From IMG/VR virus record IMGVR_UViG_3300010883_000549, positions 1 through 22,501 of that record: a DNA stretch of 22,501 nt. One strand, written 5' to 3'. The notes beneath the pieces are model-generated. The model was not told the DNA's origin. It worked only from the letters and a program-made list of their open reading frames with translations, and did no database searches. The first letter of the stretch is position 1. The number at the start of each line of letters is the position of its first letter. Position numbers and translations under genes: made by a program. This DNA is from a virus. Shown here piece after piece: positions 5,953-22,501 of the stretch.

Positions 5953-8733
5953 ATGCCGAAGGTAATTCAATCAAGCATGGCTGGCGGTGAAGTCTCCGCT
6001 GCCATCGGTGCCAGAGTAGATATTGGAAAATACAAGTCGAGCCTTGAGACGTGCGAGAACGCATTCGTCCAAGTGCACGGTGGCGTTTCCAATCGCCCCG
6101 GTCTTCAGTATGTGGCCGAGTGTGTCAGCGGTACACTGAATACCCGCATCATTCCATTCGAGTACAATACTGAGCAGACCTACATTTTAGAGTTCGGCAA
6201 TCTGTACATGCGCGTCGTCAAGGACGCTGGTCAGGTTCTAACCGGAACATCGAAGACCATAACAGGTGTCACCGCTGCTAACCCCGGCGTCGTGACGGCG
6301 ACAGCGCACGGCTTCAGCAACGGAGACGACGTGTACGTCATTGGCGTAGTTGGGATGACACAACTCAACGGTCGAACCATGCGCGTCGCTAACAAGGCAA
6401 CGAACACCTTCGAGCTGAACGATTACGACGACAACAACATAGACACGTCGGCCTACACAGCTTACGGCAGCGCGGGAAGCGCAGAGGCTGTTTACGAAAT
6501 CGTCACGACATATACAACGGCGGAGCTGTTCGACATTAAGTTCGTCCAGTCTGCCGATGTTATGACTATCGTTCACAAAGACCATAACCCTGTAGAGCTT
6601 ACGCGGACGGGGCACGCGGCGTGGACAATGACCGACATCGTGTTCGCACCACAGCAGGCATTCCCGACCGGCGTCGCCGTCGGCGCAAACACTACAGGCG
6701 CGGAGACCGAGCGTTATGTAGTGACAGCGGTGAACGACGAGAACGCCGAGGAGAGCCTAGTCGGCATAGCGTTGGGCACAAGCATCACCGCCATCACTAA
6801 AGCAAACCCCGCTGTCGTCACAGCGGCGGCTCATGGGTTTACAAATCTTGACGAGATCGAAATACAAAGCGTCGTGGGTATGACCGAGGTAAATAATCTT
6901 CGCTTCAAGGTCGCGTCCAAGACGACTAATACCTTCGAGCTGCAGGACTTGTCTCGCGTCGACATCGACAGCAGCGCGTACACGACTTACAGCTCCGCTG
7001 GCACGGCCTTTCCAGCCTATGATAAAATAACCAACGGTGCGGTGACCAAAGATAACACGATCACATGGACAGCAGTGGCTAACGCCATAAGCTACAACGT
7101 CTACCACGAAAAGGATGGCATCTTCGGTTTCATCGGACGGAGCGAGATCGACAGCTTCACTGACAACAACATCGACGCCGACCTCGAAGACACGCCACCG
7201 AAATTTCGAGACCCCTTCGTCAGTACAAACGAGAAGCCGTCGTCTGTTGGCTACTTCCAGCAGCGGAGGCTCTTCGCAAGCAGCGCAAACAAGAAGCAGC
7301 GCATGTGGTTTACGCAGACTGCTAATCACTACAACCTCGGCGTCTCATCCCCCACTAAGGACGACGACGCCATCACCGTCACCATCGCCAGCCTTCAGGT
7401 GAACGAGATAAGGCACATGGTGCAGCTCGGTGAACTCATCGTACTGACGTCCGGCGGAGAATGGAAAGCCAGCGGCGTCGACGGTGTCATCACTCCCAGC
7501 ACAATCCAGATTGAACCTCAGACGTACTACGGCTCTGAGCAGTTGACGCCGGTCACGGCGGGCGACGTTGTCCTGTACATGCAGCCCGGGTGGACGGTGA
7601 GGGATTTGGCGTACAAGTTCGAGACTGACAGCTACAACGGAAACGACATCTCCATCCTCGCCCGGCACATGTTTGACGACTACACTTTCATCGACTGGGC
7701 TTACGCGCAGGCACCGCACTCCATCGTATGGGCTACGCGGAATGACGGCACCATATGCTCGCTGACCTATGTTAGGGAACAGGAAATTTTTGCATGGAGC
7801 AGACATATAACGCAGGGCGATTTTAAAAGCGTGGCCTCCGTACAGGAAGGCAGTGACGATTTCATGTATACCATTGTCCAGCGGAAAATTGGCACACGGA
7901 CGCGGCAGTACATCGAGCGTCTGCACGACGCCGAGTTCAGCAACGTGCAGGACGCCTTCTTTGTAGACAGTGGCCTGAGCCTTAACACGCCGATCACGAT
8001 CACTGGCTACACGTCTGCTAATCCTGTCGTCGTCACCGCAGTCGGACACGGACTGTCTAACGCCGACACCATCGACATCAATAACATCTACGTCGCCGAC
8101 GACACTGTCGACCAAGGACGTTCCATCTCTACAGAGTTGGACGGCATCGGTTACACGGTGTCCAACAAAACGACGGACACCTTCGAGGTCCAGCTTAACG
8201 CAGTGGACGTCGACGGCAGCGCATTTAAAACATACGACAGTGGTGGAGAGGTGCGTCTGGCCAAAACCTCCATCGGCGGGCTGTGGCACCTAGAAGGGGC
8301 AAGCGTCGTTGGCATAGCTAACGGGTACGTCACTGGCGCACTGACCGTCGCCAATGGTTCAGTCACTATCCCCAACGCATCCAGCCGTGTGCACATTGGT
8401 CTCAACTACACGTCGACTGTCAAGACGTTGAAGCTGGACAATGCTAATCCTCTCGACACTGTGCAGGGACGCAACAAGAAATTGACGCGGTTGACACTGC
8501 GCCTCGAGAAGACCATGGGCCTGTGGCACGGCCCAGACCTCACGCACATGCGCCAAGCAAAATTTGGCCTGCCGTCGCTGTACGGGCAGGAGCTGTCGAT
8601 GATCACCGGAGATAAGGATGTCACCCTGTCGCCGAGCTGGAACAAGAATGGCCAGATCGTCATACAGCAGCGCGACCCCCTACCTATGACATTGCTTGCC
8701 ATAATCCCCGACGTCATCATTGGGGGTGACTGA
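5953..8733 (+). CDS. Tail nozzle (T7 gp12-like tail tubular protein B) with three FCCH-like modules
   Basis: A 926-aa protein that forms the short tail tube tip in podophages. The N-terminus QSSMAGGEVSAAIGARVD, then CENAFVQVHGGVSNRPG is the family start. Other matches are VGYFQQRRLFASS (about 430-442), GELIVLTSGGEWKASG and the end GQIVIQQRDPLPMTLLAIIPD. Into this framework are set three related beta modules at residues about 99-176, 277-352 and 680-766. Each reads ITG-T-ANP-VVTA-AHG-S-GD, then V-NKTTNTFEL, then D-SAYTTY-S-G. They resemble the E1 FCCH domain commonly annotated in phage tail proteins. Residues about 245-275 and 356-415 look like two parts of a fibronectin-type segment. The family's T7 member is near 800 aa, so the added modules explain most of the extra length. 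The stop shares one base with the next start. Confidence 0.9.
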   Translation: MPKVIQSSMAGGEVSAAIGARVDIGKYKSSLETCENAFVQVHGGVSNRPGLQYVAECVSGTLNTRIIPFEYNTEQTYILEFGNLYMRVVKDAGQVLTGTSKTITGVTAANPGVVTATAHGFSNGDDVYVIGVVGMTQLNGRTMRVANKATNTFELNDYDDNNIDTSAYTAYGSAGSAEAVYEIVTTYTTAELFDIKFVQSADVMTIVHKDHNPVELTRTGHAAWTMTDIVFAPQQAFPTGVAVGANTTGAETERYVVTAVNDENAEESLVGIALGTSITAITKANPAVVTAAAHGFTNLDEIEIQSVVGMTEVNNLRFKVASKTTNTFELQDLSRVDIDSSAYTTYSSAGTAFPAYDKITNGAVTKDNTITWTAVANAISYNVYHEKDGIFGFIGRSEIDSFTDNNIDADLEDTPPKFRDPFVSTNEKPSSVGYFQQRRLFASSANKKQRMWFTQTANHYNLGVSSPTKDDDAITVTIASLQVNEIRHMVQLGELIVLTSGGEWKASGVDGVITPSTIQIEPQTYYGSEQLTPVTAGDVVLYMQPGWTVRDLAYKFETDSYNGNDISILARHMFDDYTFIDWAYAQAPHSIVWATRNDGTICSLTYVREQEIFAWSRHITQGDFKSVASVQEGSDDFMYTIVQRKIGTRTRQYIERLHDAEFSNVQDAFFVDSGLSLNTPITITGYTSANPVVVTAVGHGLSNADTIDINNIYVADDTVDQGRSISTELDGIGYTVSNKTTDTFEVQLNAVDVDGSAFKTYDSGGEVRLAKTSIGGLWHLEGASVVGIANGYVTGALTVANGSVTIPNASSRVHIGLNYTSTVKTLKLDNANPLDTVQGRNKKLTRLTLRLEKTMGLWHGPDLTHMRQAKFGLPSLYGQELSMITGDKDVTLSPSWNKNGQIVIQQRDPLPMTLLAIIPDVIIGGD

Positions 8734-9179
8734 TGATCAGGAAATTAACCAGAGAGGATGTGCCCGTCCTTGTTGACGTGTGCATGGACTTCCACGGTGA
8801 CAGTGTCTTGTCCCAGTTCACCTTCGACAAAAGCAAAGCACTGTACATCCTTGACGAAATCATCGAGCACGAAATGGTCTTCGCCTACGGGGCTTTTCAT
8901 AAGGATCAGTTAATCGGGGGTCTGGTTGCGGAGGCAAAATCACATCTTTTTCTAGACGTCCTGTTCGCCGAGGACATCGGCTTCTTTATAAAAAGCGACC
9001 GGAGGGGTGGCCTGAACGCCAAGAGGCTAGTCAATAAGTTTAACTTGTGGTGCGCCGACCTTGGGGTGGATGTAACCCAGATATCAGTCGACGCCGGTAT
9101 ATCCAATGAGAGGACGTGTGGCTTTCTAGGATATATGGGTTATAAGGATACAGGCAGCCTGATGACGATAGGATTGTAA
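8733..9179 (+). CDS. GNAT-family acetyltransferase-like protein
   Basis: A 148-aa protein with the GNAT layout. It has an N-terminal 'RKLTREDVPVLVDVCMDF' start, a central strand (MVFAYGAFHKDQLIGGLVAE), and an acetyl-CoA loop-like RRGGLNAKRLVNKF (residues 90-103). Then come VTQISVDAGISNERTCGFLGYMGY and a final strand. The enzyme would transfer an acetyl group from acetyl-CoA; the substrate is unknown. Podophages often carry such a gene between the nozzle and the gp14-like core gene. Start and upstream stop share one base (TGATG). The gene uses AGA/AGG arginine codons noticeably often compared with its neighbours, a possible sign of separate origin. The loop deviates from the consensus R/Q-x-x-G-x-G/A, so activity is not assured. 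Confidence 0.75.
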   Translation: MIRKLTREDVPVLVDVCMDFHGDSVLSQFTFDKSKALYILDEIIEHEMVFAYGAFHKDQLIGGLVAEAKSHLFLDVLFAEDIGFFIKSDRRGGLNAKRLVNKFNLWCADLGVDVTQISVDAGISNERTCGFLGYMGYKDTGSLMTIGL

Positions 9180-11771: not shown

Positions 11772-14700
11772 ATGGCAGAGTTTAATCCATTCGAGGAGTT
11801 CGTCTCCAGTCAGGCCAGCCGTCCACTCGATGACCCGCTGACGCCTGACATCAAGGACGATGAGCCAGACCCCTTCGCTGGGTTTGTGGAGCAGGAGCGG
11901 AAGCGTGACCAGCAGCAGGCTCTGAACACTGTCGCCGACGCTACGCCGGTCAACCCCGACACCTACGCTGCCATGCGCACCATGGCGCAAGACGTCAACA
12001 TCAATACTCGGATGCTTCTGGGTGATGTGGAGCCAGACAAGCTGCGCACCAAACACGTCGTCGAGCAGACCCGGTCCTTTCTAAAAGAGAACCCGAGGGT
12101 CGAGCGGTTTCTCCGCGACCCCGACAGCGTCCGCCTGACCCACGATGACATCGCCGGTCTACGCTCGGTGCATGAGGCGTCGAAGCGGTTGTCTCTCAGC
12201 GAGGAGGACAAAGGCTTCGGTGAGGTCACGTCTGGCATCGCCGAGCGGTTACCGAAAATTTTCGAGCAGGTTGGTATCGCCACTGGTGCGGCTGTCCTAG
12301 AAGGAAACGAAGACACTATATTCCCGCACGAAGCCTTGGCCAAAATGGACGACGAAGAGAAGGCCGCCTACAACGCGATGGACACCAGAGAGAAAGTCAG
12401 CTTCCTCTTCTCCGACAAAAACAAGAAGAGGTTTAAGTCTGAGCTGGGTAAGGAAGGCCGTGAGAAGGTATCTGCCAGTCTCGACGAGGTGACCAGAGAG
12501 CTAAACATTATGCGGGCGCGTGCGCCGAAGGAGGGGGTGGCGTTTTATGCGTCGGCCATTGCTGAAGGCACAGCCGCGATGCTACCAGCCATCGCCACTG
12601 GTATGCTTACAAAAAACCCGAAGCTGGCGTTGTCAATTATGTACACGCAGGCGTTCGGCGGCAGGTACGCGCAGGCTAGAGAGCGCGGCAAGAAAGACGG
12701 CACGACACAGAGCGACGCCTTCGCCGAGGCGTTCGTCTTCGCCGGTCTCGAAGTCGTCAGCGAGAAGATACCGCTGGGCATCCTACTGAGCGAAGGCGGT
12801 CGGGGCTTTAGGGGTATTTTCAAGAGCATGGGCGCGGAGGCCATACAGGAGACCTTCATCGAGGGCGTCGATATTGGGTTTGAGATGGGACTTCTAAACA
12901 AGGACATGACAGTGCCTCAAGCCTTCGCCCGGTTGCGCGACGCCGCCATCATTGGCGCGGGCGTCGGCGGCACACTGAGGGGTGGCGTTCAAGGCGTCCG
13001 GCGGCTGGCCGAAATAGGTGGGCTGCGCAGAGCCGGTGACGACGCACAGGATTATGAGACACGGTTGACCGATGCGCAGAAGGCAGTGCAGGAAGCCAAG
13101 CTGGCTGCACGGTCACCGGAGAAGATGAAGGAGTTCCTCGATCAGTCCAACGACGACGCGACGGTGCACATTTCAGCAGAGGATGTGATCGAGCTGCAGC
13201 AGAGCGGTGTGCTCACCGACGAGGTCATGGCCGAGCTGGAACTGAACGAAGAGATGGCCGAGACCGCTGCGCGGAACGGTGACTTCGAGATCAGCGTATC
13301 CAAGCTGTTGATGCTGGACGAGGCGACCTTCTCGGCTGTCTCCCCCAGCATCAGAGAAAAGCCCAACAGCCTGTCTGCCAAGGAAGCAACCTCGCAGGTC
13401 GCCGACAGAGAGGCGTTGATCAAGACGCTGGTCGAGCAGATGAATACGCAGCTTGATGAAGACCCAGACGCAACGCCCATCGCTGACGCCGTCGGCGCAG
13501 CACTTGCGGCGACTGGCAAGTTCACCGCTGCAGAGATTGGCCAGCAAGCGGAACTGGCCGAGGCCACCTACCAAACGAGAGCCGAAAATTTAGAGGGGGT
13601 CACAGCGGAGGAGCTGTTCCTCGAAGAGAATGTTCAGATACGCGGACCGGCTGACACGACGCGCAACGCCGCGACCGTCAGCTTCAATCAAGTGGACCGC
13701 ACAAAACTAGATTTCAAAGACGTCACCAAGTCAGTTCCGGGTCTGGCAGAGGCAGCCGCCAAACGGCAGGCTGGTGAGATCACTGCCGAGGAGTACCAGC
13801 GTGAAGTAGACAAACTGAAGACTGTACTTCCATTCGACATCATCCCCGCGCCAGCCACAGTCAAAGAGATGCGCGATGCTCTAGACAAGAATAAAAAGAG
13901 TAAACTGGGGCAGTCCAAGAAGATACCTATCGGGCATCGTGTCGGTATCCGGCTCGACATCCCCGCCTACACAAACCACGGCGTCTGGGTGCCGACCATC
14001 CACAATACCCCGGTTGGTAATGTGCATGAGGCAGCCGTCCATATAACCAATGTCGACTTCGAGCCTACCGACAAAGAGCAGGAGAAGGCAGCCGGTGTTT
14101 CGCAGGGGGGGTCCAAGGCTCCGTTTGCGAGGATAGACGGTGACTTCCAATCAGCCGACGCCGATGCTTTGGCCGCCCGCGCTGCAGAGGTGCTGAACGA
14201 TCCTGAGTGGACGCAGGTTGGTTACGACCCCCAACGTCACTCGTTCTTTTATGATCGCACCACAGGCGAACCAATTCTGTCGGCGACTGAAGTGATACAG
14301 GTAGGGCCACTGATCCTTGCCCGCAACGCTGTCAAAGGCGAGGCGCAAGACTTCCTGTTTCAGCGGCCTGTCAGCTCTGCAGACACTCCGGCACCCCAGC
14401 ACCACACGCTAACCAAAGCCGACAATAAGCGTATCAAAGGGCTGAAGAAAAAGGTGCCCGGCCTCGGTCGGTTGCTGCCTCTTCTGCAGGCCGACGAGCA
14501 GGCTCTACTCACCGAGACATCGGCCAAGAACTTTGTCGAGCTGTACAACAAGATGCCGTCGCCGCAAGAGATGGCCGAGGTTGCTTTGTCCGGCGTCGCC
14601 AAGCGCGGATGGTATCTGAACAGTGGCCGTGCGCTGGTCGAAATATTCGGCGAGGACGCACCGCGCTTTGCCGCGCTGCTGGCCGCCCTGTCACCACAGA

Positions 14701-17700
14701 CATCGGTCGAGAGTAACACCACAAACGCGCTGGGCGTCTGGGGCGCATGGATCGCTGCCGGTAGGCCGACCGACCCAAACCAGATCATCCGCCTCATGGG
14801 CGAACATGTGCAGGGTGATAAAGGCGAGGATAGCGTCCTCGGCGCATGGCGCAATAACACCGTCAACGCGCTGACGTCGACGAACCCTGCGACGATCACG
14901 ATCTCCGGCCCGAAGGTCAACTCCTTCATGCTGAACCTCCTCGGCTTCTTCAACGAAGTAACCAACGACGCATGGATGGCGAATTACACAGGGGTGGCGC
15001 AGGAGGTGTTCTCTAAGAACCAAGCCGCACCCGGCTCCGGTAAGAGTGCCGGTTACCTAGCCCTCAGTGCGCGGGCCAGAAAAGCCGCGCAAGTCTTGAG
15101 CAAAAAGACCGGCGAAGAGTGGACTGGCGCAGAGGTGCAGGAGACCATCTGGTCGTGGGCGAAGGCTCTCTATGAGAAGGCCGACGCGCAGGGCGAGACC
15201 CGCACCGCGCTGAAGATTTTGAGAGAGGGCGGCCTCACCCACGAAGAGATCAACGCCGTGCCGGACTTCGAGCAGTTGTTCGTCGTCGGTGAATACCGGC
15301 AGCTCCTTGAGCAGGCTGGCTACGGTGATCAGCTCAAGGTCGTCGACGCCTCTGTGCAGGAACGACTGGCGGCGTCAACGCCGCCGACCGGCTCTGTCTA
15401 TGAAGGTGCCAATGCGCATCTGCATAGAGCCGCCAACCGGCTGAACGATCTGGCCAAGGCGCGTGCCGCTGCTAAGGTGCGGGCCGATGTAAAGGTAACC
15501 CTGTCTGCGACCACTGACACCATCCCCGGCCTCAACGCCCTGCACGAAGCGGTGCGGGAGGGCGATGAGGCAGCTACAGTGTTACTGCAGGAGGTCGCCC
15601 GCGACGCGCTGACCTACCTGACCAGCAAAATAAAATCCGTCGAGATCGAGTACGCCCCGTCGACAGGTCTTTACGACGGAGACGCCGAGCCGTCTCTGGG
15701 CTTGTCGATATCATTCCAAGAACGCGACCGCCCGGCAGCTCTGGCGGCTCTGGCCAAGTTCGCAGAGAACTTTAATCAGGAGCAAGTGCATGTTCGTGGT
15801 GACGCAGAGCCGCGCACCAAGGTGGGCCATGTGTACCCAGACGGTTCGTACAATACAGACGTCGTTGTATTTCGTTTAGAGACGCCCTTGTCACGATCAG
15901 ATACTGAGGATATAATAAGTGGTTCCGGTCTTTTCGGGTTCACAGCCTCGGACAAGACCCTTGAAGCATATTATGTAGGAGACCCAAAAAATGAAGAAGC
16001 CCTCGCAGACTTCCGCGCCGCCGTCATCGCAGCAAGGAAACTCCTTGGAAATCTCGTCACAGATGTTGACCGAGGAACTTCGCGCTTCTGGGCTTACGGT
16101 AAGGGAGAGGGCGCGACGCACGGCTACGGGGAAATACAGCGTGAATTTCGTCCCCCTACGCAAGACCAAGCAGTCGCCACCGCCCAACGAGTAGCGTCTC
16201 GCCTTGCTGCAAGGGAGGTGCAGGGCACAGAGCAGGCTGACCTGATCACTGAGAACCAGCAGGCTCTGCATGAGCGGATCGCCGAAGCCTACGAAGCCCT
16301 GCCTGTAAATGACCTCGCCAACCCAGACGTCCGCCGCGCCTATGAGGAGCTGGCGGCGGAGGTGCTTGAGCAGTACGACGCCCTGCCGATTAAGGTTGAG
16401 ATTTTCGACGGCAAAGGGGAGCCATACACAAAGGGCAAGAAGGTGTCGTCTGCCAAGATGAGGCAGGACATCCTACACAACAACCATCTATTTATTTTTG
16501 GAACCGAGGTCGCTGGCTTCGGACCTCCCGGCGTGACCTACGATAATCACCCCCTCCTCGAAGACGCCGGTCGTAAAGACGAGAACGGCGTGCCGCTGTT
16601 GTTCAATGATCTGTTCCGCGCCGTCCATGACTATTACGCCCACACTATACAGGTCACCACCTTCGGTCCGAAGGGCGAGGAGGCTGCGTGGGCAACGCAC
16701 ATGGAGATGACCAAAAGCCCGTGGGCACGCTGGGCACTGACCAGCGAGACACGCGGACAGAATAGCTGGGTCAACTTCCGAAAATCTGTGAAGGGCGTGC
16801 CGCTAAACAAACGGGGCTTCGCCGAGCAGAAGGTCGGTCTGCTGCCGCTTGAGTTTGTAGCGACAGGCAAACCCGACGTCGATGCCTCGCTGGGTCAGCT
16901 CCCCGGCTCCGAAGGCTTGACGCTAGAACAGAACAACGGTGCCGCCAAGGGTAGCTTCCGGCAGGAGCAGCAGACCTATGGCGACATCTCCAACATCATC
17001 ACGCTGACAGAGAACGCAGACCGCACGACGTTCCTGCATGAGCTGGGCCACTTCTGGTTGTTCCAGATGAACAAGGACTTGGTCGACACTAGATTGACGA
17101 AGCAGGGCCGCGTCCGCCTCGAGCGCATGATGGCGAACACCAAGAAGTGGTTTGGACAGAACTCCGCCGATGGCTGGCGTGACTACCAGAAGCTGGAGCA
17201 GGCAGCGCGGGAAGACGCGCAGGCTGATCCAGAGAATACGTCTAAGCAGCTAAAGGCGACCCGCATGGCCGCCGCCATGGAGCACGCCAAGAAGAACGGC
17301 GGAGCCATCTACATGGCGCAGGTCGCCGAAGCCTTCATGGACGGCACCGTAGATTTCGGCACCGACCTCGAAGTCGGCTTCCATGAGATGTGGGCACGCG
17401 GCGTAGAGAAGTGGCTGGGCCAAGGCAAGGCACCGTCCTCTGGTCTCCGCGAAGCCTTCTCGAATTTCTCGACATGGGTCATCGGCGTCTACAAAAAGCT
17501 GGCCACCTTAAACGTGAACCTGTCGCCGGAGATCACAGACGTGTTCGACAGGCTGGTCGCCACCGAAGAGATGATCCAGCAAGAGAGAGGGCGAACCCTA
17601 TACTCCATCCCTGACGACCTTCGCCAGCAGGCGACGCCGAAGGAGCTGGCCGCCTTGGAGAAGGCGGAGCAGGACGCGATGACAGAGGCGCGTGCCCAGA

Positions 17701-20700
17701 TGCAGGGCAAGGTAGGACGGCAGTTGGCCAAGGAGCGCGGCGACGAGTTCAGAGCCGAGGCAGAGCGGCTGACGCAAGAGATCACAGAAGAGGTTTCCGA
17801 GCGGCCCATCCACAAGGCCGAGGGTATCCTCAAGAGCAACTTACTGTTCCTCGACCGCGCAGAGTTCGTCGCCGTCTACGGCAAGGACGCTGCCAAGCGG
17901 ATGCCTCGCGGAGCCTTCACCAAGGCGAAAGGCGCGGACATGATACCGCTGGGCAACCTCGCCCATATGGCTGGCTTCGATAGTCAGGAGGCGATGGTCA
18001 ACGAGATGCTGGCACCGCACGCTTCACTGGCCACGGTCGTAAAGGCCGAGGTCGACGTGCGGCTGGCTGAGAAGTTCGGCACCTTCCTTGAACCCGACCG
18101 GCTGGCCGACGAGGCAGCCGAGGTAGTCCAGAACGAGAAGATGGTCGAGCTGATGGCCCTACAGGCCCGGCTGGTCCGGCGGCTGGCCAAAGGCCCGCTC
18201 AAGACGATAGCCGAGCGCAGGGCACAGGAAGAGGGAGTCGATACGACGGCAGCGGAGGACCGTGGGGCCGTGGAAGACGCCGAGCGTGGGGCAGAGGCCG
18301 CTCCGACGCCTCAAGACGCTGTACCGGGCGAATTGGCGGTCGCACAGACCAAAGCAGAGAAGGACGCCAATGTAGCCCAGCGACGTGCCCAGAGGGCCGC
18401 TGTACGGCGTATCAGGGAGCTGGCGCGGTCCATGGACACCGCCGCCATCAAAGAGGCCGCCCGGCAGATCACAGAGAAGATGACCGTCGGCAAGATGACC
18501 TCGCAGAAGTTCCGTCAGACTGCAGACCGGCTGGCCAAGAAGGCGCAGCTTGCCATCGCCAAGCGGGACTATACAGAGGCCGCCAACCTGCTACAGGAGC
18601 GCACCCTCAATCTGGAGATCGCCAGAGAGGTCACGGTCAAGCGGGCGAAGGTCGATCAGGTCATCAAGCAGGCACAGAAAATTTTAGGCCGGTCCGACAA
18701 GCAGCTCAAGAATGGGTACGACATCGACATCATCCAGACCGTGCGCATGATGCTGGAGCCATACGGCGTGCTCCGGTCGCGCAGCTCACAGATGCCCGCC
18801 GACGAGTTCTTGGCGACACTCAAAAATGTTGACCCCAATCTCGCAGGGGAGCTGGGCAAGATTGTCGAGAACGCCGTGCGTAACGCCGAGCCGTACATCG
18901 TTCGGACCGACGGCAAGATGCCCTACAAGGCGATGAGCTACACCGAGTTCATGGTGTTGATGAATGAGGTTAGAGGATTGATCACGCAGGCCCGCGACGG
19001 CCAGACGGTTAAGGTCGACGGTGAGCGTGTCACGTTTGACCGCATCAACGAGGAAGTCGCACGCAGCACCATCGACCTCGCTCCGGTGAACGCGGACAAC
19101 AAGGCGCGTGGCACAGACAACCAGCGCGACTGGAAAACCGCTATCGGCGCAATCCGCACATGGACGCGCCGGGTGGAGTTGTGGGCACGGGCGATAGACG
19201 GCGGGTCAGACGGCCCGATGCAGAAATACATAGTGCGCCCGGTGATGAACGGCATCACTGCGTACCAGACAGCCCGCATACCCCTAGTCGACAAGCTGCA
19301 CGATTTACTCACGCCGGTAGCGGATGATCTGGCCAAGCCTACGCGCATCGACGCGCCGGAGCTGGATGGGTACTTCTTCAATACCAAAGCCGAGCTGTTG
19401 CACTTCATGCTGCACACAGGAAACGCCAGCAACGAGCGCAAGCTACTGATTGGTGGGGCGACCGATATCAACTCCGGTCGTGAGTACCAGTGGACGAAGA
19501 CCATCGATCCACGGGAAGAGGTAGACACCGGACAGCTCGAAACCTTCATCAACCGCATGTTCGCCGAGGGCGTATTGACCCAAGCAGACGTCGACCTGTT
19601 GAATGGTATCTGGGCAATCTTCGATGAGACTAAGGTAGGTGCACAGAAAGCGCACCGTGAAATGCACGGCCACTTCTTCGACGAGATCGACGCGACGGCG
19701 AGGCAGACACCGTTCGGTGAGCTGACCGGCGGGTATGTTCCAGCCATAGCGGATAATCTGATGAACCCAGAAGGCACGCGCAAGGAGGCTGCCGATGATC
19801 TGGGCAGCGCACAGAACGCCGCCATGTTCCCCGGCGCAGAGGACGGCTTCACCAAAGGCCGGGTCGAGTACAACCAGCCGCTGGCGTTAGACCTGCGCAT
19901 GATCCCCATGCATATCGACAAGGTCTTGAAGTTTACCCACATTGGACCGCCGGTCAGGAACGCTGCGCGGATAGCGGTGAACAAAAAATTCCAAGCCACC
20001 GTCAACAAATTCGACCACTTCGCCGTCGGCGAGATCATCATCCCGTGGCTGAATAGGTCGGCACGACAGACGGTCACAGAGCCGGGTAACAGATCAGCCG
20101 ATAAATTCTTCACCGCCCTTAGCCGGAACATCGGCTTGCAGACGATGATGGGTAACATCGTCAACGCCGGGCAGCAGTTGACGGGCCTCATCACTGCTAC
20201 CAGCCGGGTAAAATCCAGCCTGCTGATTAAGAACCTCGCCCGGTTCCGCAAGGACGGCGAGACCGGACGCGCTTATGTATCCAGTCGGTCGCCCTTCATG
20301 GCGGTCAGGCTGCTCGACAGTGTCAACGATTTAACCGCCAACGTCAGCAACGTGCTGACCGCGAACACCACCATCCAGAAGGGCAGGTTCTGGGCAAACA
20401 AATACGGTTACATCCTGCAGCAGATGGCGCAGAACATGGTTGACCCAGTTGTCTGGATGGCAGCCGAGGAGCAGGCGCGTGACGAGGGCTTGTGGCAGGA
20501 CGTCTACGACGCACACACCGAGCTTGGCCTCGACATCGCCACGACTAAAGCTGACGCCGCCGTCGCCATGTACGCCGACGAGATCGTCCGCTCTACGCAG
20601 ACACCGCTCGGCGCACAGGACATTAGTAGGATGGAGGCGTCCGGCGCGTTCGTCCGTATCTTTATGAAGTTCCAAGGCTACTTCAACAATATGATGAACC

Positions 20701-21293
20701 TATCGTCGACCGAGTTCCAAGTCATCAGCCGGGACATCGGGTACAAGGGAAACAAGCCGGGGCGGTTCTTCTACCTTTATCTGGCGGTCATCGCTGCCCC
20801 TGCCATCGTGGCGGAGGGCATCGCCATGGCAGCCGGTGGAGACTTCGATGATCTCGACGAGAAGGACAGCGACGAGGTCGCCGCGACCTTCTTTAAGCTG
20901 TTCGTCGTATCACAGGGAAAATTTGTCGCTAACTTCCTCCCCGGAGCGGGCGCAGTAGCCAACTTTTTATGGGCGAGGGCCACCCCCCAGTTCTGGGACG
21001 ACAAGCTATCTGTAAGCCCTGTCATCTCCATCGGGGAGCAGGGTATAGCAGGGGCGACCCGCGTCGTCATGGATGTTATAGAGTACGCTCAAGAAGGAGA
21101 GTTCAACCGCGACGCCAGTGCGATGGTGAAGGACACGTTGGGTGCCATTGGTATAATGCTCGGCCTCCCCACAAACTGGTTTTCTAAGCCCCTCACCTAC
21201 CTGATGAAGATCAACGAGGGGAACGCCGATCCAGAGCATGTCGGCGATTATGTGCAGGGGTTCCTACGAGGTAGGGATGGCACTGAGGACTGA
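11772..21293 (+). CDS. Giant multidomain ejection protein (gp16 position; polyvalent-type, zincin and glycosylase-like domains)
   Basis: A 3173-aa protein in the T7 gp16 slot (1318 aa in T7), expected to be packed in the head and ejected. From N to C: two copies of a DPF-x-x-FV motif (residues 5-11, 33-39); a helical Gly/Ala-rich hydrophobic zone (about 255-410); a beta domain with RVGIRLDIPAYT and YDPQRHSFFYDR (about 697-856); an HhH-GPD-like domain (about 900-1140); a beta domain with DGSYNTDVVVFRLETPLS (about 1330-1410); an HDYYAH domain (about 1500-1700); a HELGH zincin-like domain (about 1735-1935); and long charged coiled-coil-like stretches (about 1945-2300). The helical C-terminus has a membrane-like segment YLYLAVIAAPAIVAEGIAMA (about 3001-3020). 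The mosaic resembles phage 'large polyvalent' proteins. I find no lytic transglycosylase. The start abuts the previous stop, with only GGTGG (11763-11767) as a weak ribosome site. Confidence 0.85.
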   Translation: MAEFNPFEEFVSSQASRPLDDPLTPDIKDDEPDPFAGFVEQERKRDQQQALNTVADATPVNPDTYAAMRTMAQDVNINTRMLLGDVEPDKLRTKHVVEQTRSFLKENPRVERFLRDPDSVRLTHDDIAGLRSVHEASKRLSLSEEDKGFGEVTSGIAERLPKIFEQVGIATGAAVLEGNEDTIFPHEALAKMDDEEKAAYNAMDTREKVSFLFSDKNKKRFKSELGKEGREKVSASLDEVTRELNIMRARAPKEGVAFYASAIAEGTAAMLPAIATGMLTKNPKLALSIMYTQAFGGRYAQARERGKKDGTTQSDAFAEAFVFAGLEVVSEKIPLGILLSEGGRGFRGIFKSMGAEAIQETFIEGVDIGFEMGLLNKDMTVPQAFARLRDAAIIGAGVGGTLRGGVQGVRRLAEIGGLRRAGDDAQDYETRLTDAQKAVQEAKLAARSPEKMKEFLDQSNDDATVHISAEDVIELQQSGVLTDEVMAELELNEEMAETAARNGDFEISVSKLLMLDEATFSAVSPSIREKPNSLSAKEATSQVADREALIKTLVEQMNTQLDEDPDATPIADAVGAALAATGKFTAAEIGQQAELAEATYQTRAENLEGVTAEELFLEENVQIRGPADTTRNAATVSFNQVDRTKLDFKDVTKSVPGLAEAAAKRQAGEITAEEYQREVDKLKTVLPFDIIPAPATVKEMRDALDKNKKSKLGQSKKIPIGHRVGIRLDIPAYTNHGVWVPTIHNTPVGNVHEAAVHITNVDFEPTDKEQEKAAGVSQGGSKAPFARIDGDFQSADADALAARAAEVLNDPEWTQVGYDPQRHSFFYDRTTGEPILSATEVIQVGPLILARNAVKGEAQDFLFQRPVSSADTPAPQHHTLTKADNKRIKGLKKKVPGLGRLLPLLQADEQALLTETSAKNFVELYNKMPSPQEMAEVALSGVAKRGWYLNSGRALVEIFGEDAPRFAALLAALSPQTSVESNTTNALGVWGAWIAAGRPTDPNQIIRLMGEHVQGDKGEDSVLGAWRNNTVNALTSTNPATITISGPKVNSFMLNLLGFFNEVTNDAWMANYTGVAQEVFSKNQAAPGSGKSAGYLALSARARKAAQVLSKKTGEEWTGAEVQETIWSWAKALYEKADAQGETRTALKILREGGLTHEEINAVPDFEQLFVVGEYRQLLEQAGYGDQLKVVDASVQERLAASTPPTGSVYEGANAHLHRAANRLNDLAKARAAAKVRADVKVTLSATTDTIPGLNALHEAVREGDEAATVLLQEVARDALTYLTSKIKSVEIEYAPSTGLYDGDAEPSLGLSISFQERDRPAALAALAKFAENFNQEQVHVRGDAEPRTKVGHVYPDGSYNTDVVVFRLETPLSRSDTEDIISGSGLFGFTASDKTLEAYYVGDPKNEEALADFRAAVIAARKLLGNLVTDVDRGTSRFWAYGKGEGATHGYGEIQREFRPPTQDQAVATAQRVASRLAAREVQGTEQADLITENQQALHERIAEAYEALPVNDLANPDVRRAYEELAAEVLEQYDALPIKVEIFDGKGEPYTKGKKVSSAKMRQDILHNNHLFIFGTEVAGFGPPGVTYDNHPLLEDAGRKDENGVPLLFNDLFRAVHDYYAHTIQVTTFGPKGEEAAWATHMEMTKSPWARWALTSETRGQNSWVNFRKSVKGVPLNKRGFAEQKVGLLPLEFVATGKPDVDASLGQLPGSEGLTLEQNNGAAKGSFRQEQQTYGDISNIITLTENADRTTFLHELGHFWLFQMNKDLVDTRLTKQGRVRLERMMANTKKWFGQNSADGWRDYQKLEQAAREDAQADPENTSKQLKATRMAAAMEHAKKNGGAIYMAQVAEAFMDGTVDFGTDLEVGFHEMWARGVEKWLGQGKAPSSGLREAFSNFSTWVIGVYKKLATLNVNLSPEITDVFDRLVATEEMIQQERGRTLYSIPDDLRQQATPKELAALEKAEQDAMTEARAQMQGKVGRQLAKERGDEFRAEAERLTQEITEEVSERPIHKAEGILKSNLLFLDRAEFVAVYGKDAAKRMPRGAFTKAKGADMIPLGNLAHMAGFDSQEAMVNEMLAPHASLATVVKAEVDVRLAEKFGTFLEPDRLADEAAEVVQNEKMVELMALQARLVRRLAKGPLKTIAERRAQEEGVDTTAAEDRGAVEDAERGAEAAPTPQDAVPGELAVAQTKAEKDANVAQRRAQRAAVRRIRELARSMDTAAIKEAARQITEKMTVGKMTSQKFRQTADRLAKKAQLAIAKRDYTEAANLLQERTLNLEIAREVTVKRAKVDQVIKQAQKILGRSDKQLKNGYDIDIIQTVRMMLEPYGVLRSRSSQMPADEFLATLKNVDPNLAGELGKIVENAVRNAEPYIVRTDGKMPYKAMSYTEFMVLMNEVRGLITQARDGQTVKVDGERVTFDRINEEVARSTIDLAPVNADNKARGTDNQRDWKTAIGAIRTWTRRVELWARAIDGGSDGPMQKYIVRPVMNGITAYQTARIPLVDKLHDLLTPVADDLAKPTRIDAPELDGYFFNTKAELLHFMLHTGNASNERKLLIGGATDINSGREYQWTKTIDPREEVDTGQLETFINRMFAEGVLTQADVDLLNGIWAIFDETKVGAQKAHREMHGHFFDEIDATARQTPFGELTGGYVPAIADNLMNPEGTRKEAADDLGSAQNAAMFPGAEDGFTKGRVEYNQPLALDLRMIPMHIDKVLKFTHIGPPVRNAARIAVNKKFQATVNKFDHFAVGEIIIPWLNRSARQTVTEPGNRSADKFFTALSRNIGLQTMMGNIVNAGQQLTGLITATSRVKSSLLIKNLARFRKDGETGRAYVSSRSPFMAVRLLDSVNDLTANVSNVLTANTTIQKGRFWANKYGYILQQMAQNMVDPVVWMAAEEQARDEGLWQDVYDAHTELGLDIATTKADAAVAMYADEIVRSTQTPLGAQDISRMEASGAFVRIFMKFQGYFNNMMNLSSTEFQVISRDIGYKGNKPGRFFYLYLAVIAAPAIVAEGIAMAAGGDFDDLDEKDSDEVAATFFKLFVVSQGKFVANFLPGAGAVANFLWARATPQFWDDKLSVSPVISIGEQGIAGATRVVMDVIEYAQEGEFNRDASAMVKDTLGAIGIMLGLPTNWFSKPLTYLMKINEGNADPEHVGDYVQGFLRGRDGTED
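12537..13001 (+). other. Hydrophobic glycine-rich segment of the giant protein
   Basis: Residues about 256-410. It contains FYASAIAEGTAAMLPAIATG, a 'FGGRYAQARERGKKDG' link, VFAGLEVVSEKIPLGILLS and AAIIGAGVGGTLRGGVQG. Alternating small residues and amphipathic helices of this kind are found in ejection proteins and in large polyvalent proteins. I infer membrane association during ejection. Boundaries are approximate. Confidence 0.5.
14469..15191 (+). other. HhH-GPD DNA glycosylase-like domain inside the giant protein
   Basis: Residues about 900-1140. FAALLAALSPQTSVESN (residues about 966-982) resembles the LLSAQATDVSVN segment of endonuclease III. SGPKVNSFMLNL (1045-1056) resembles its hairpin and catalytic-lysine segment, and NDAWM (1065-1069) its catalytic Asp segment. 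K1048 and D1066 are 18 residues apart, the spacing of K120 and D138 in E. coli endonuclease III. The cysteines of an iron-sulfur cluster are absent. The homology is inferred by eye and not proven. Confidence 0.5.
16269..16871 (+). other. Histidine-rich HDYYAH domain inside the giant protein
   Basis: Residues about 1500-1700. It contains NDLFRAVHDYYAH (H1619, D1620, H1624), then FGPKGEEAAWATHMEM (E1636, E1637, H1643), then SETRGQNSWVNF (1658-1669). The clustered His, Asp and Glu residues suggest a metal-binding hydrolase-like site. I recognise the pattern from other large phage virion proteins but know no assigned activity. Confidence 0.5.
16974..17576 (+). other. Zincin-type metallopeptidase-like domain inside the giant protein
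   Basis: Residues about 1735-1935. The helix TTFLHELGHFWLFQMN holds the HExxH motif (H1756, E1757, H1760). Downstream, FHEMWARGVEKWL supplies further acidic and His residues (H1871, E1872, E1879), and E1872 or E1879 could be the third zinc ligand as in gluzincins. The segment GKAPSSGLREAFSNFSTWVIGVYKKL follows. This layout matches metallopeptidase domains seen in polyvalent phage proteins. Confidence 0.65.
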
Positions 21294-21326: not shown

Positions 21327-22421
21327 ATGACGGTTGATCTAGAAACAGCAAAATCCGGCCCCTACACAGGAGACGGTGCTGTCACTGTTTTCGCTTACGC
21401 TTTTAAGGCGTTGAACGAGGCGCACCTTGTCGTTACTCAGACGGTGATTGCCACTGGCGTAGAGACGGTGAAAACGCTAACGACGCACTACACCGTCTCC
21501 GGCGTGGGCGTAGACGGTGGCGGTAACGTCACCATGCTCGTAGCACCTCCATCCACGGCAACCCTCACCATCAGCAGAGCCGTCACAAAGTCCCAGTCTA
21601 CCGATCTGGTGAACCGTGGTGCTGTCCAGCCAGAAAGTTTAGAGACAGCCTTGGACCGTGGCGTCCAGATGACGCAAGACCTCGAAGAGGTCGTTGACCG
21701 TTCAGTCCGCTTCGCGGTATCCGCCGACCTATCATCATTTAATCCCGACGTCCCTGAGCCTGTCGCCTCAAAAGCGATTTCTATCAATGCGGCTGGCACA
21801 GCATTCGAGTTGGTCGACACTCCTACTGTCGCTGCCGCTGCCGCCGCTGCAAGTGCCGCCGCTGCCTTGGTGTCAGAGAACGCTGCCGCTGCTGATCTGG
21901 TCCTGACGAATGCGGATGTCGTTCTTACCAACGCTGACGTTGTTCTTACCAACGCTGACGTTGTCCTTACCAACGCTGACGTTGTCCTTACCAACGCTGA
22001 CGTTGTCCTTACCAACGCGGATGTCGTTCTTACCAACGCCGATGTCGTTACGGTTGCCGCTACGGCAGCTACGATGACAGGCGCGGCAAGTTCAACGTCC
22101 CTTCTTATCGAGGTGGCAAGCAAAGCATTCACAGTTGCCTCTGGTCTTGGATTTATTGCTGGTGATTGGGTGTTGGCTACATCTGATGCAGGCATTACTA
22201 ATTATATGCATGGACAGATCGCCTCATACACTGGCACAACGATGACTGTTACCGTCGATAATATCGGCGGGTCCGGCACACTTGCTGACTGGACTATTCG
22301 ACGGTCAGGCACGCAAGGGACTACGGGTAATACAGGATCAACAGGATCAACTGGCCCAACAGGGGCAACTGGTCCCATTGGCCCCGTCGGGGTCGGATTA
22401 TCATTAGCACTAGGAGGCTGA
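21327..22421 (+). CDS. Tail fibre protein with T7-like anchor, heptad repeats and collagen-like end
   Basis: A 364-aa protein with GGAAGGA (21314-21320) before the start. Residues 1-about 150 resemble the T7 gp17 N-terminal domain that anchors fibres to the tail: a YTGDGAVTVFAYAFKALNEAHLVV start, then TTHYTVSG, then TLTISRAVTKSQSTDLVN, then ESLETALDRGVQMTQDLEE. An Ala-rich linker (about 171-191) leads into seven perfect copies of VLTNADV (192-240), probably a trimeric coiled coil. Next comes a small beta domain (about 250-325: SKAFTVASGLGFIAGDWVLATS), then nine Gly-X-Y triplets (328-354) and a short hydrophobic end. No receptor-binding or chaperone domain is visible, so it probably serves as the proximal fibre or adaptor for a following gene. 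Confidence 0.85.
   Translation: MTVDLETAKSGPYTGDGAVTVFAYAFKALNEAHLVVTQTVIATGVETVKTLTTHYTVSGVGVDGGGNVTMLVAPPSTATLTISRAVTKSQSTDLVNRGAVQPESLETALDRGVQMTQDLEEVVDRSVRFAVSADLSSFNPDVPEPVASKAISINAAGTAFELVDTPTVAAAAAAASAAAALVSENAAAADLVLTNADVVLTNADVVLTNADVVLTNADVVLTNADVVLTNADVVLTNADVVTVAATAATMTGAASSTSLLIEVASKAFTVASGLGFIAGDWVLATSDAGITNYMHGQIASYTGTTMTVTVDNIGGSGTLADWTIRRSGTQGTTGNTGSTGSTGPTGATGPIGPVGVGLSLALGG
21900..22046 (+). repeat. Seven 21-bp in-frame tandem repeats in the fibre gene
   Basis: Seven contiguous 21-bp units each encode VLTNADV. Units 2 and 3 (21921-21962) are identical, and so are units 4 and 5 (21963-22004), differing from 2 and 3 by one base. Units 1, 6 and 7 differ at a few silent positions. 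This suggests recent expansion by slippage or unequal recombination. The unit is exactly one heptad, so any change of copy number keeps the frame and changes shaft length. Confidence 0.95.
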
Positions 22422-22501
22422 CATGGCTGACACACTAACTGGCAAGGGTTACGCCATCACGACTACAGATGCAGTCGCCCTAACCGCTGCCGCTGGCGAA
22501 A
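22412..22501 (+). CDS. Start of the gene after the fibre, cut by the window end
   Basis: AGGAGG (22412-22417) lies 5 bases before an ATG at 22423, directly after the fibre stop, so a new gene clearly begins here (the coding part is 22423 onward). The visible 26 residues are MADTLTGKGYAITTTDAVAL followed by TAAAGE. This is too short to assign a family. By position it is a candidate for a fibre partner or receptor-binding protein. Confidence 0.7.

Follow-up and report, generated by a model that had tools for sequence, protein, structure and literature searches.

What part of a phage tail fibre would be built from seven identical heptads in a row, and can such a part grow and shrink while the fibre stays whole? 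The question is raised by the window, which is the entire virus record IMGVR_UViG_3300010883_000549 (22,501 bases) and probably a genome fragment, because the contig breaks off inside its last gene. The explanation that we consider likely is that the array is the helical shaft of an oligomeric podovirus tail fibre, that it grows and shrinks in frame by whole heptads, and that it acts as a phase-keeping joint for recombination.

The fibre gene and its virion anchor

The fibre gene is the last complete gene of the window and lies directly 3' of a gene for a 3173-residue protein. Its position is within a podovirus structural gene block, with head-tail adaptor, major head and tail protein families identified upstream by PHROG. 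The adaptor/portal protein shares 45.6-45.8% identity with those of Bordetella BPP-1-type phages and about 45% with those of epsilon15-type phages. The features of the gene are as follows, with related loci given by L numbers:

21327..22421, + strand: tail fibre gene, 364 aa (open reading frame; PHROG tail and tail-fibre families on the N-terminal part)
21327..21710, + strand: N-terminal virion anchor, residues 1-128 (phmmer, Foldseek, identity to L090)
21822..22067, + strand: predicted helix (shaft), residues 166-247 (AlphaFold2)
21864..21896, + strand: shaft-start cassette ALVSENAAAAD, residues 180-190 (26 stretches in viral contigs)
21900..22046, + strand: seven VLTNADV heptads of 21 bp each, residues 192-240 (sequence, Tandem Repeats Finder)
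22047..22307, + strand: helix end and distal domain, residues 241-327 (identity to L002 and L004)
22308..22391, + strand: collagen-like G-x-y stretch, residues 328-355 (Pfam Collagen below cut-off; sequence)
22389..22418, + strand: C-terminal peptide GVGLSLALGG (same or near-same ending in L002, L037, L040 and L053)
22423..22501, + strand: start of the next gene, MADTLTGKGY... (truncated by the contig end; the L002 contig stops at the same base)

The gene product is a podovirus tail fibre with an N-terminal anchor of the Carin-1/T7 gp17 type, as found by PHROG, phmmer and Foldseek. Its N-terminal part matches the tail protein family phrog_1640 (E 2.5e-24), and anchor residues 12-128 match Dpo31 of Cobetia phage Carin-1 (phmmer E 6.8e-14). 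Foldseek places the fibre model with the Carin-1 structure 8ck1 (E 2.9e-7) and with the T7 gp17 N-terminal structures 7ey9 (E 2.1e-3) and 7boz (E 1.6e-2), the likeness to T7 gp17 being one of anchor fold in a comparison that covers the anchor. Residues 1-128 are mainly strands, with a predicted helix at 102-125. A Pfam search of the fibre at E 0.01 returned no T7 tail-fibre model and only a sub-threshold Collagen match (E 0.0077, 16.4 bits, under its 27.2 cut-off). Matches of the collagen-like stretch to kinesin constructs in the PDB, and of the array to a Plasmodium HPPK-DHPS chain (PDB 5z79, E 2e-5), were judged to be of low complexity.

According to the report on Dpo31, this protein is a trimer in which a linker joins a beta-sandwich domain D1 (residues 8-87) to D2 (102-256), which has two three-helix coil regions (PMC13317679). 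Dpo31 (8ck1, 28lx) and the window fibre share a homologous N-terminal anchor followed by helices. Beyond this point they differ, since Dpo31 goes on into a beta-helix depolymerase, whereas the window fibre carries seven identical heptads on a predicted helix and then a small domain and a collagen-like tail.

Other genes of the window have features of their own. The tail protein encoded at 5953-8730 (926 aa) has two stretches matching Pfam E1_FCCH, a domain of ubiquitin-activating enzyme (E 2.2e-21), and an acetyltransferase-like gene (8733-9179; phrog_1249, E 1.1e-18) is found within the structural block. The single gene at 11772-21293, encoding the 3173-residue protein, takes up approximately 42% of the record and has Pfam matches to LPD22 and DUF7178.

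Homogeneity of the array and length differences among relatives

An earlier note, made from the letters of the window, had claimed seven in-frame copies of VLTNADV at 21900-22046 (residues 192-240), each adding one heptad with the frame kept, and adjacent identical DNA pairs that indicate recent duplication. The sequence is exactly so: the 21-mers of copies 2 and 3 are identical, as are those of copies 4 and 5, and Tandem Repeats Finder reports a 21-bp array at 21924-22039 (5.5 copies, 94% matches, score 197). The duplication was assessed against random codon choice in 20,000 simulations, with the codon usage of seven window genes. No simulation reached two identical neighbouring units; the observed 29 of 42 identical codons between neighbours (simulated mean 16.2) was reached in 5, and the observed 79 of 147 across all pairs of units (simulated mean 56.7) in 216. 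Reordering the seven units gives a weak signal, with the neighbouring-codon count reached by a fraction of 0.052 of the orders and the identical neighbours by 0.095, so that the array is homogeneous as a whole and the order of its units adds little. The note's further remark that identical heptads in a row are unusual also holds; the window run of 7.1 copies is the longest in 48 non-redundant heptad proteins (the window included, out of 84 found by motif in the loci collected), and the second longest has 4.6. The best reading of these patterns is that the array has recently been expanded by duplication of heptad units, presumably through slippage, as the note proposed, or through unequal recombination.

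Judged from aligned proteins, fibre shafts of this kind change by whole heptads among relatives. The closest fibre, that of L002, has the same start cassette and distal domain with two degenerate heptads instead of seven, and is 35 residues, or five heptads, shorter with its distal flank conserved. L061 and L062, found on contigs of different sample numbers with 98.8-99.3% DNA identity, are one heptad (7 aa) apart. When five related pairs or groups are compared gap by gap, all nine distinct gaps within the heptad span are multiples of 7: 28 residues for L011/L082; 14 and 7 for L019/L020; 7 and 7 for L038/L082; 7, 49 and 35 for L070 against L087/L088; and 7 for L061/L062. Gaps outside the heptad span in the same five alignments have many lengths. 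Several differences were not counted as array changes, namely one extra residue before the shaft of L011, six extra residues after that of L019, a 12-residue difference near the N-terminus of L034/L059, and a 7-residue difference in L035/L080 that lies beyond the motif span in an Ala/Glu/Thr-rich stretch.

Among named phages, a blastn search with the array gave eight records with short matches. One of these is the cultured Roseobacter phage CRP-361, which differs from CRP-227, also a cultured Roseobacter phage, by one block of 105 residues (15 heptads), with distal ends that diverge; the shaft of these two is Ala/Ser/Thr-rich and of another kind than that of the window. Another is Ochrobactrum ZX86, in which heptads of the array kind are absent from the two genes that were read.

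How live such variation is separates the explanation given above from its strongest rival, and this is the sole point on which they part. The rival supposes a helical shaft whose copy number is fixed or drifting neutrally after one past expansion, with no role in tuning, and we give it an even chance. Array length is unchanged in 12 of 13 groups of near-identical relatives (members at least 95% identical in protein, some overlaps being partial), the reordering signal is weak, and exact VLTNADV copies are found in neither L002 nor L090, the nearest relatives of the two halves of the fibre among the loci found, so that the array may be one event. Against a fixed number, the remaining group is L061/L062, one heptad apart at approximately 99% DNA identity, and whole-heptad differences within the span are also seen in four further related pairs or groups. 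That the array tunes fibre length in a population, as the earlier note suggested, is plausible.

Helix prediction and heptad phase

The shaft is predicted to be a helix, including residues 192-240, which the earlier note had taken for a possible coiled coil. The AlphaFold2 model of the full-length fibre (18 sequences; mean pLDDT 68.0, pTM 0.30 for the whole model) has a helix at residues 166-247, with block means of 83, 78, 76 and 75 over 191-230, 60 at 231-240 and 34 at 241-250; the predicted helix is continuous over the shaft, with low confidence at its C-terminal end in this model. When the shaft was folded alone with no alignment, the best model was helical over residues 2-85 of 86 (mean pLDDT 94.7), and the means of the five models were 94.7, 94.6, 93.7, 64.5 and 40.3, the last two being poor. 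These predictions are of single chains, and AlphaFold2 tends to draw helices in repeats.

The exact word VLTNADV seems a weak classical coiled-coil repeat, having low hydrophobic power at the helical angle (0.13-0.15) and a high content of beta-branched residues. Hydrophobic power is largest at the helical angle in 61 of the 132 other distinct heptad words. In the same 132 words, taken besides TNADVVL, columns 3 and 6 behave as core positions would, with hydrophobic residues in 83% and 88% of the words and charged ones in 2% and 0%; hydrophobic residues are also frequent in columns 5 and 7 (69% and 58%). Asparagine at core position d is a motif of trimeric coiled coils. A reading of the heptad as VxxNAxx with asparagine at d seems the less likely register, since columns 3 and 6 fit the core better and would put the asparagine (column 2) at g.

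Heptad phase was followed from motif to motif and from motif to landmark. Between one heptad motif and the next, counted up to 70 residues apart in the 48 proteins, the spacing is a multiple of 7 in 425 of 431 cases. All six off-phase spacings have a remainder of 4; two of them, both in L073, are inside an array, and the other four were judged to start or end outside arrays. The six are not taken as a sign of coiled-coil stutters. An FDDxYLG-type motif that follows the heptads served as an alignment-free landmark: measured from the last heptad motif, it lies a multiple of 7 residues away in 21 of 23 occurrences (22 loci, 14-252 residues), and measured from the first, in 18 of 23. A binomial figure of 3e-16 for this landmark presumes an independence that related fibres do not have. 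The FDDxYLG motif is absent from the window, so the window itself is outside the landmark test. As a control, the distance from the anchor to the first heptad is a multiple of 7 in 2 of 16 rows, a few of which fit the anchor pattern loosely; the remainder is 5 in 8 of the 16, and relatedness alone can thus yield some agreement. Phase is kept across the shaft in the motif spacings, in the gaps within the heptad span and in the landmark distances as set against the control. A larger count, in which 138 of 139 indels were multiples of 7 (and 10 of 18 more in other contexts), is not relied on because it is biased: periodic sequences can be aligned in no other way than in phase, and the repeats are all that many pairs have in common.

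A second rival would make the array a flexible or unfolded spacer rather than a coiled coil, as has been suggested for the heptad domain of NeuO, an enzyme of the CUS-3 prophage. In the report on NeuO, the number of heptads varies from 1 to 31 in isolates, and a triple coiled coil was proposed that the crystal structure did not bear out (PMC3046976). VLTNADV is itself weakly amphipathic, which speaks for a spacer. The landmark distances at 21 of 23 places in relatives, the helix predictions for the full-length fibre and the shaft alone, and the three-helix coil region beside the anchor of the homologue Dpo31 (PMC13317679) speak against such a spacer, and we regard it as unlikely. The poly-psi domain of NeuO, encoded by a prophage gene, resembles the window array in its tandem 7-residue units, the number of which varies between isolates (PMC3046976). 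It differs in that its unit is one of 7-nt repeats, in which many changes shift the frame and turn the gene off, and in that NeuO is an enzyme; the 21-bp unit of the window allows only lengthening or shortening.

The weakest rival, a copy number produced by short-read assembly over a tandem repeat, is very unlikely: the array is tandem and the sequence comes from a virus record, but synonymous differences tell the units apart, and the longest exact internal repeat is 53 nt, which usual long k-mers and reads exceed, so that long-k-mer assembly could resolve the array.

A mosaic fibre and its shaft as a possible joint

Among the loci found, the anchor and the distal end of the window fibre are each closest to a different relative. 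Identity to the sister phage L090 is 77% over residues 1718-3173 of the 3173-residue protein and 73% over residues 1-166 of the fibre; past residue 166 the L090 fibre continues as an Ala-rich stretch with no VLTNADV. Similarity between L002 and the window fibre is weak in the anchor, and no match to the 3173-residue protein was found within the 6 kb of L002 compared. Over fibre residues 241-360, 16-20 of every 20 residues per block are identical to those of L002, and DNA identity is 88.7% over 22017-22501; residues 255-349 are also 77% identical to L004. By these identities, the fibre is a mosaic, with an anchor nearest to L090 (to approximately residue 166) and a distal end nearest to L002 (from approximately residue 241), and the change-over accordingly lies in the helix. 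The corresponding shaft region of L090 has a tandem repeat of its own at 7362-7447, with a unit of 42 bp (14 residues, two heptads).

The start of the shaft is conserved more widely. ALVSENAAAAD is found in 26 stretches of viral contigs, many of them in contigs already in the set of relatives, and the fourth residue after it is the heptad T in all 26 and in the window. Mean identity is 0.87 over a cassette region of 25 residues, 11 of which were fixed by the search. Agreement at four-fold third bases is 0.31 over 351 pairs, near-identical contigs included, and since codons are thus varied, the conservation of the cassette would seem old and at the level of protein rather than a product of recent DNA exchange.

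In the explanation that we prefer, the array would form the shaft of a podovirus tail fibre that is a homo-oligomer, probably a trimer, with each 21-bp unit adding one helical heptad (approximately 1 nm at the usual helix rise) between an anchor seated in the tail and a distal domain. Slippage, or unequal recombination of near-identical units, may add or remove copies in frame, and the changes that survive would mainly be those of whole heptads, because these keep the phase of the helix. A shaft that keeps phase would let recombination join the anchor of one phage to the distal end of another. A more specific proposal is tentative and rather doubtful: a joint with a conserved start cassette, interchangeable words of the TNADVVL kind and phase-fixed exit domains (FDDxYLG), of which the window array has been caught expanding. 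If such a standard joint exists, different anchors would be fused in register to different distal domains, the rod would change by whole heptads, and the population of the window phage would be expected to contain fibres of several lengths.

The hosts within reach of a phage depend in part on its tail fibres, and it is fair to suppose that array length might affect host range. If the shaft changes mainly by whole heptads and the mosaic change-over lies within it, this would account for fibres that differ in length and exchange ends yet stay intact. The rule of distances in multiples of seven is simple and can be tested on phage fibres known from metagenomes alone. Coiled-coil surface rods such as the streptococcal M protein also change in length, through recombination between internal repeats; the M protein differs from the window fibre in being a bacterial surface protein with longer repeat units. 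In the open-licence literature searched, no description of heptad copy-number change in a phage fibre was recognised, and the strings TNADVV and LVSENAA did not occur.

Minor observations concern the opposite strand and the end of the contig. An antisense open reading frame that spans the array (21488-22195) reads as TTSALVR units and was dismissed as the repeat's shadow. The ending GVGL(S/A)LALGG closes fibres with differing shafts in L002, L037, L040 and L053 and might be a peptide on which the next fibre protein docks. In these four loci the gene next after the fibre starts with MAD(T/V)LTGKGY, and its product has 107 aa in L037, L040 and L053. The last 123 nt of the window (22379-22501) are identical to the end of contig L002, as if both contigs had met one assembly branch point, and the MADTLTGKGY... 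gene may be common to co-occurring phages.
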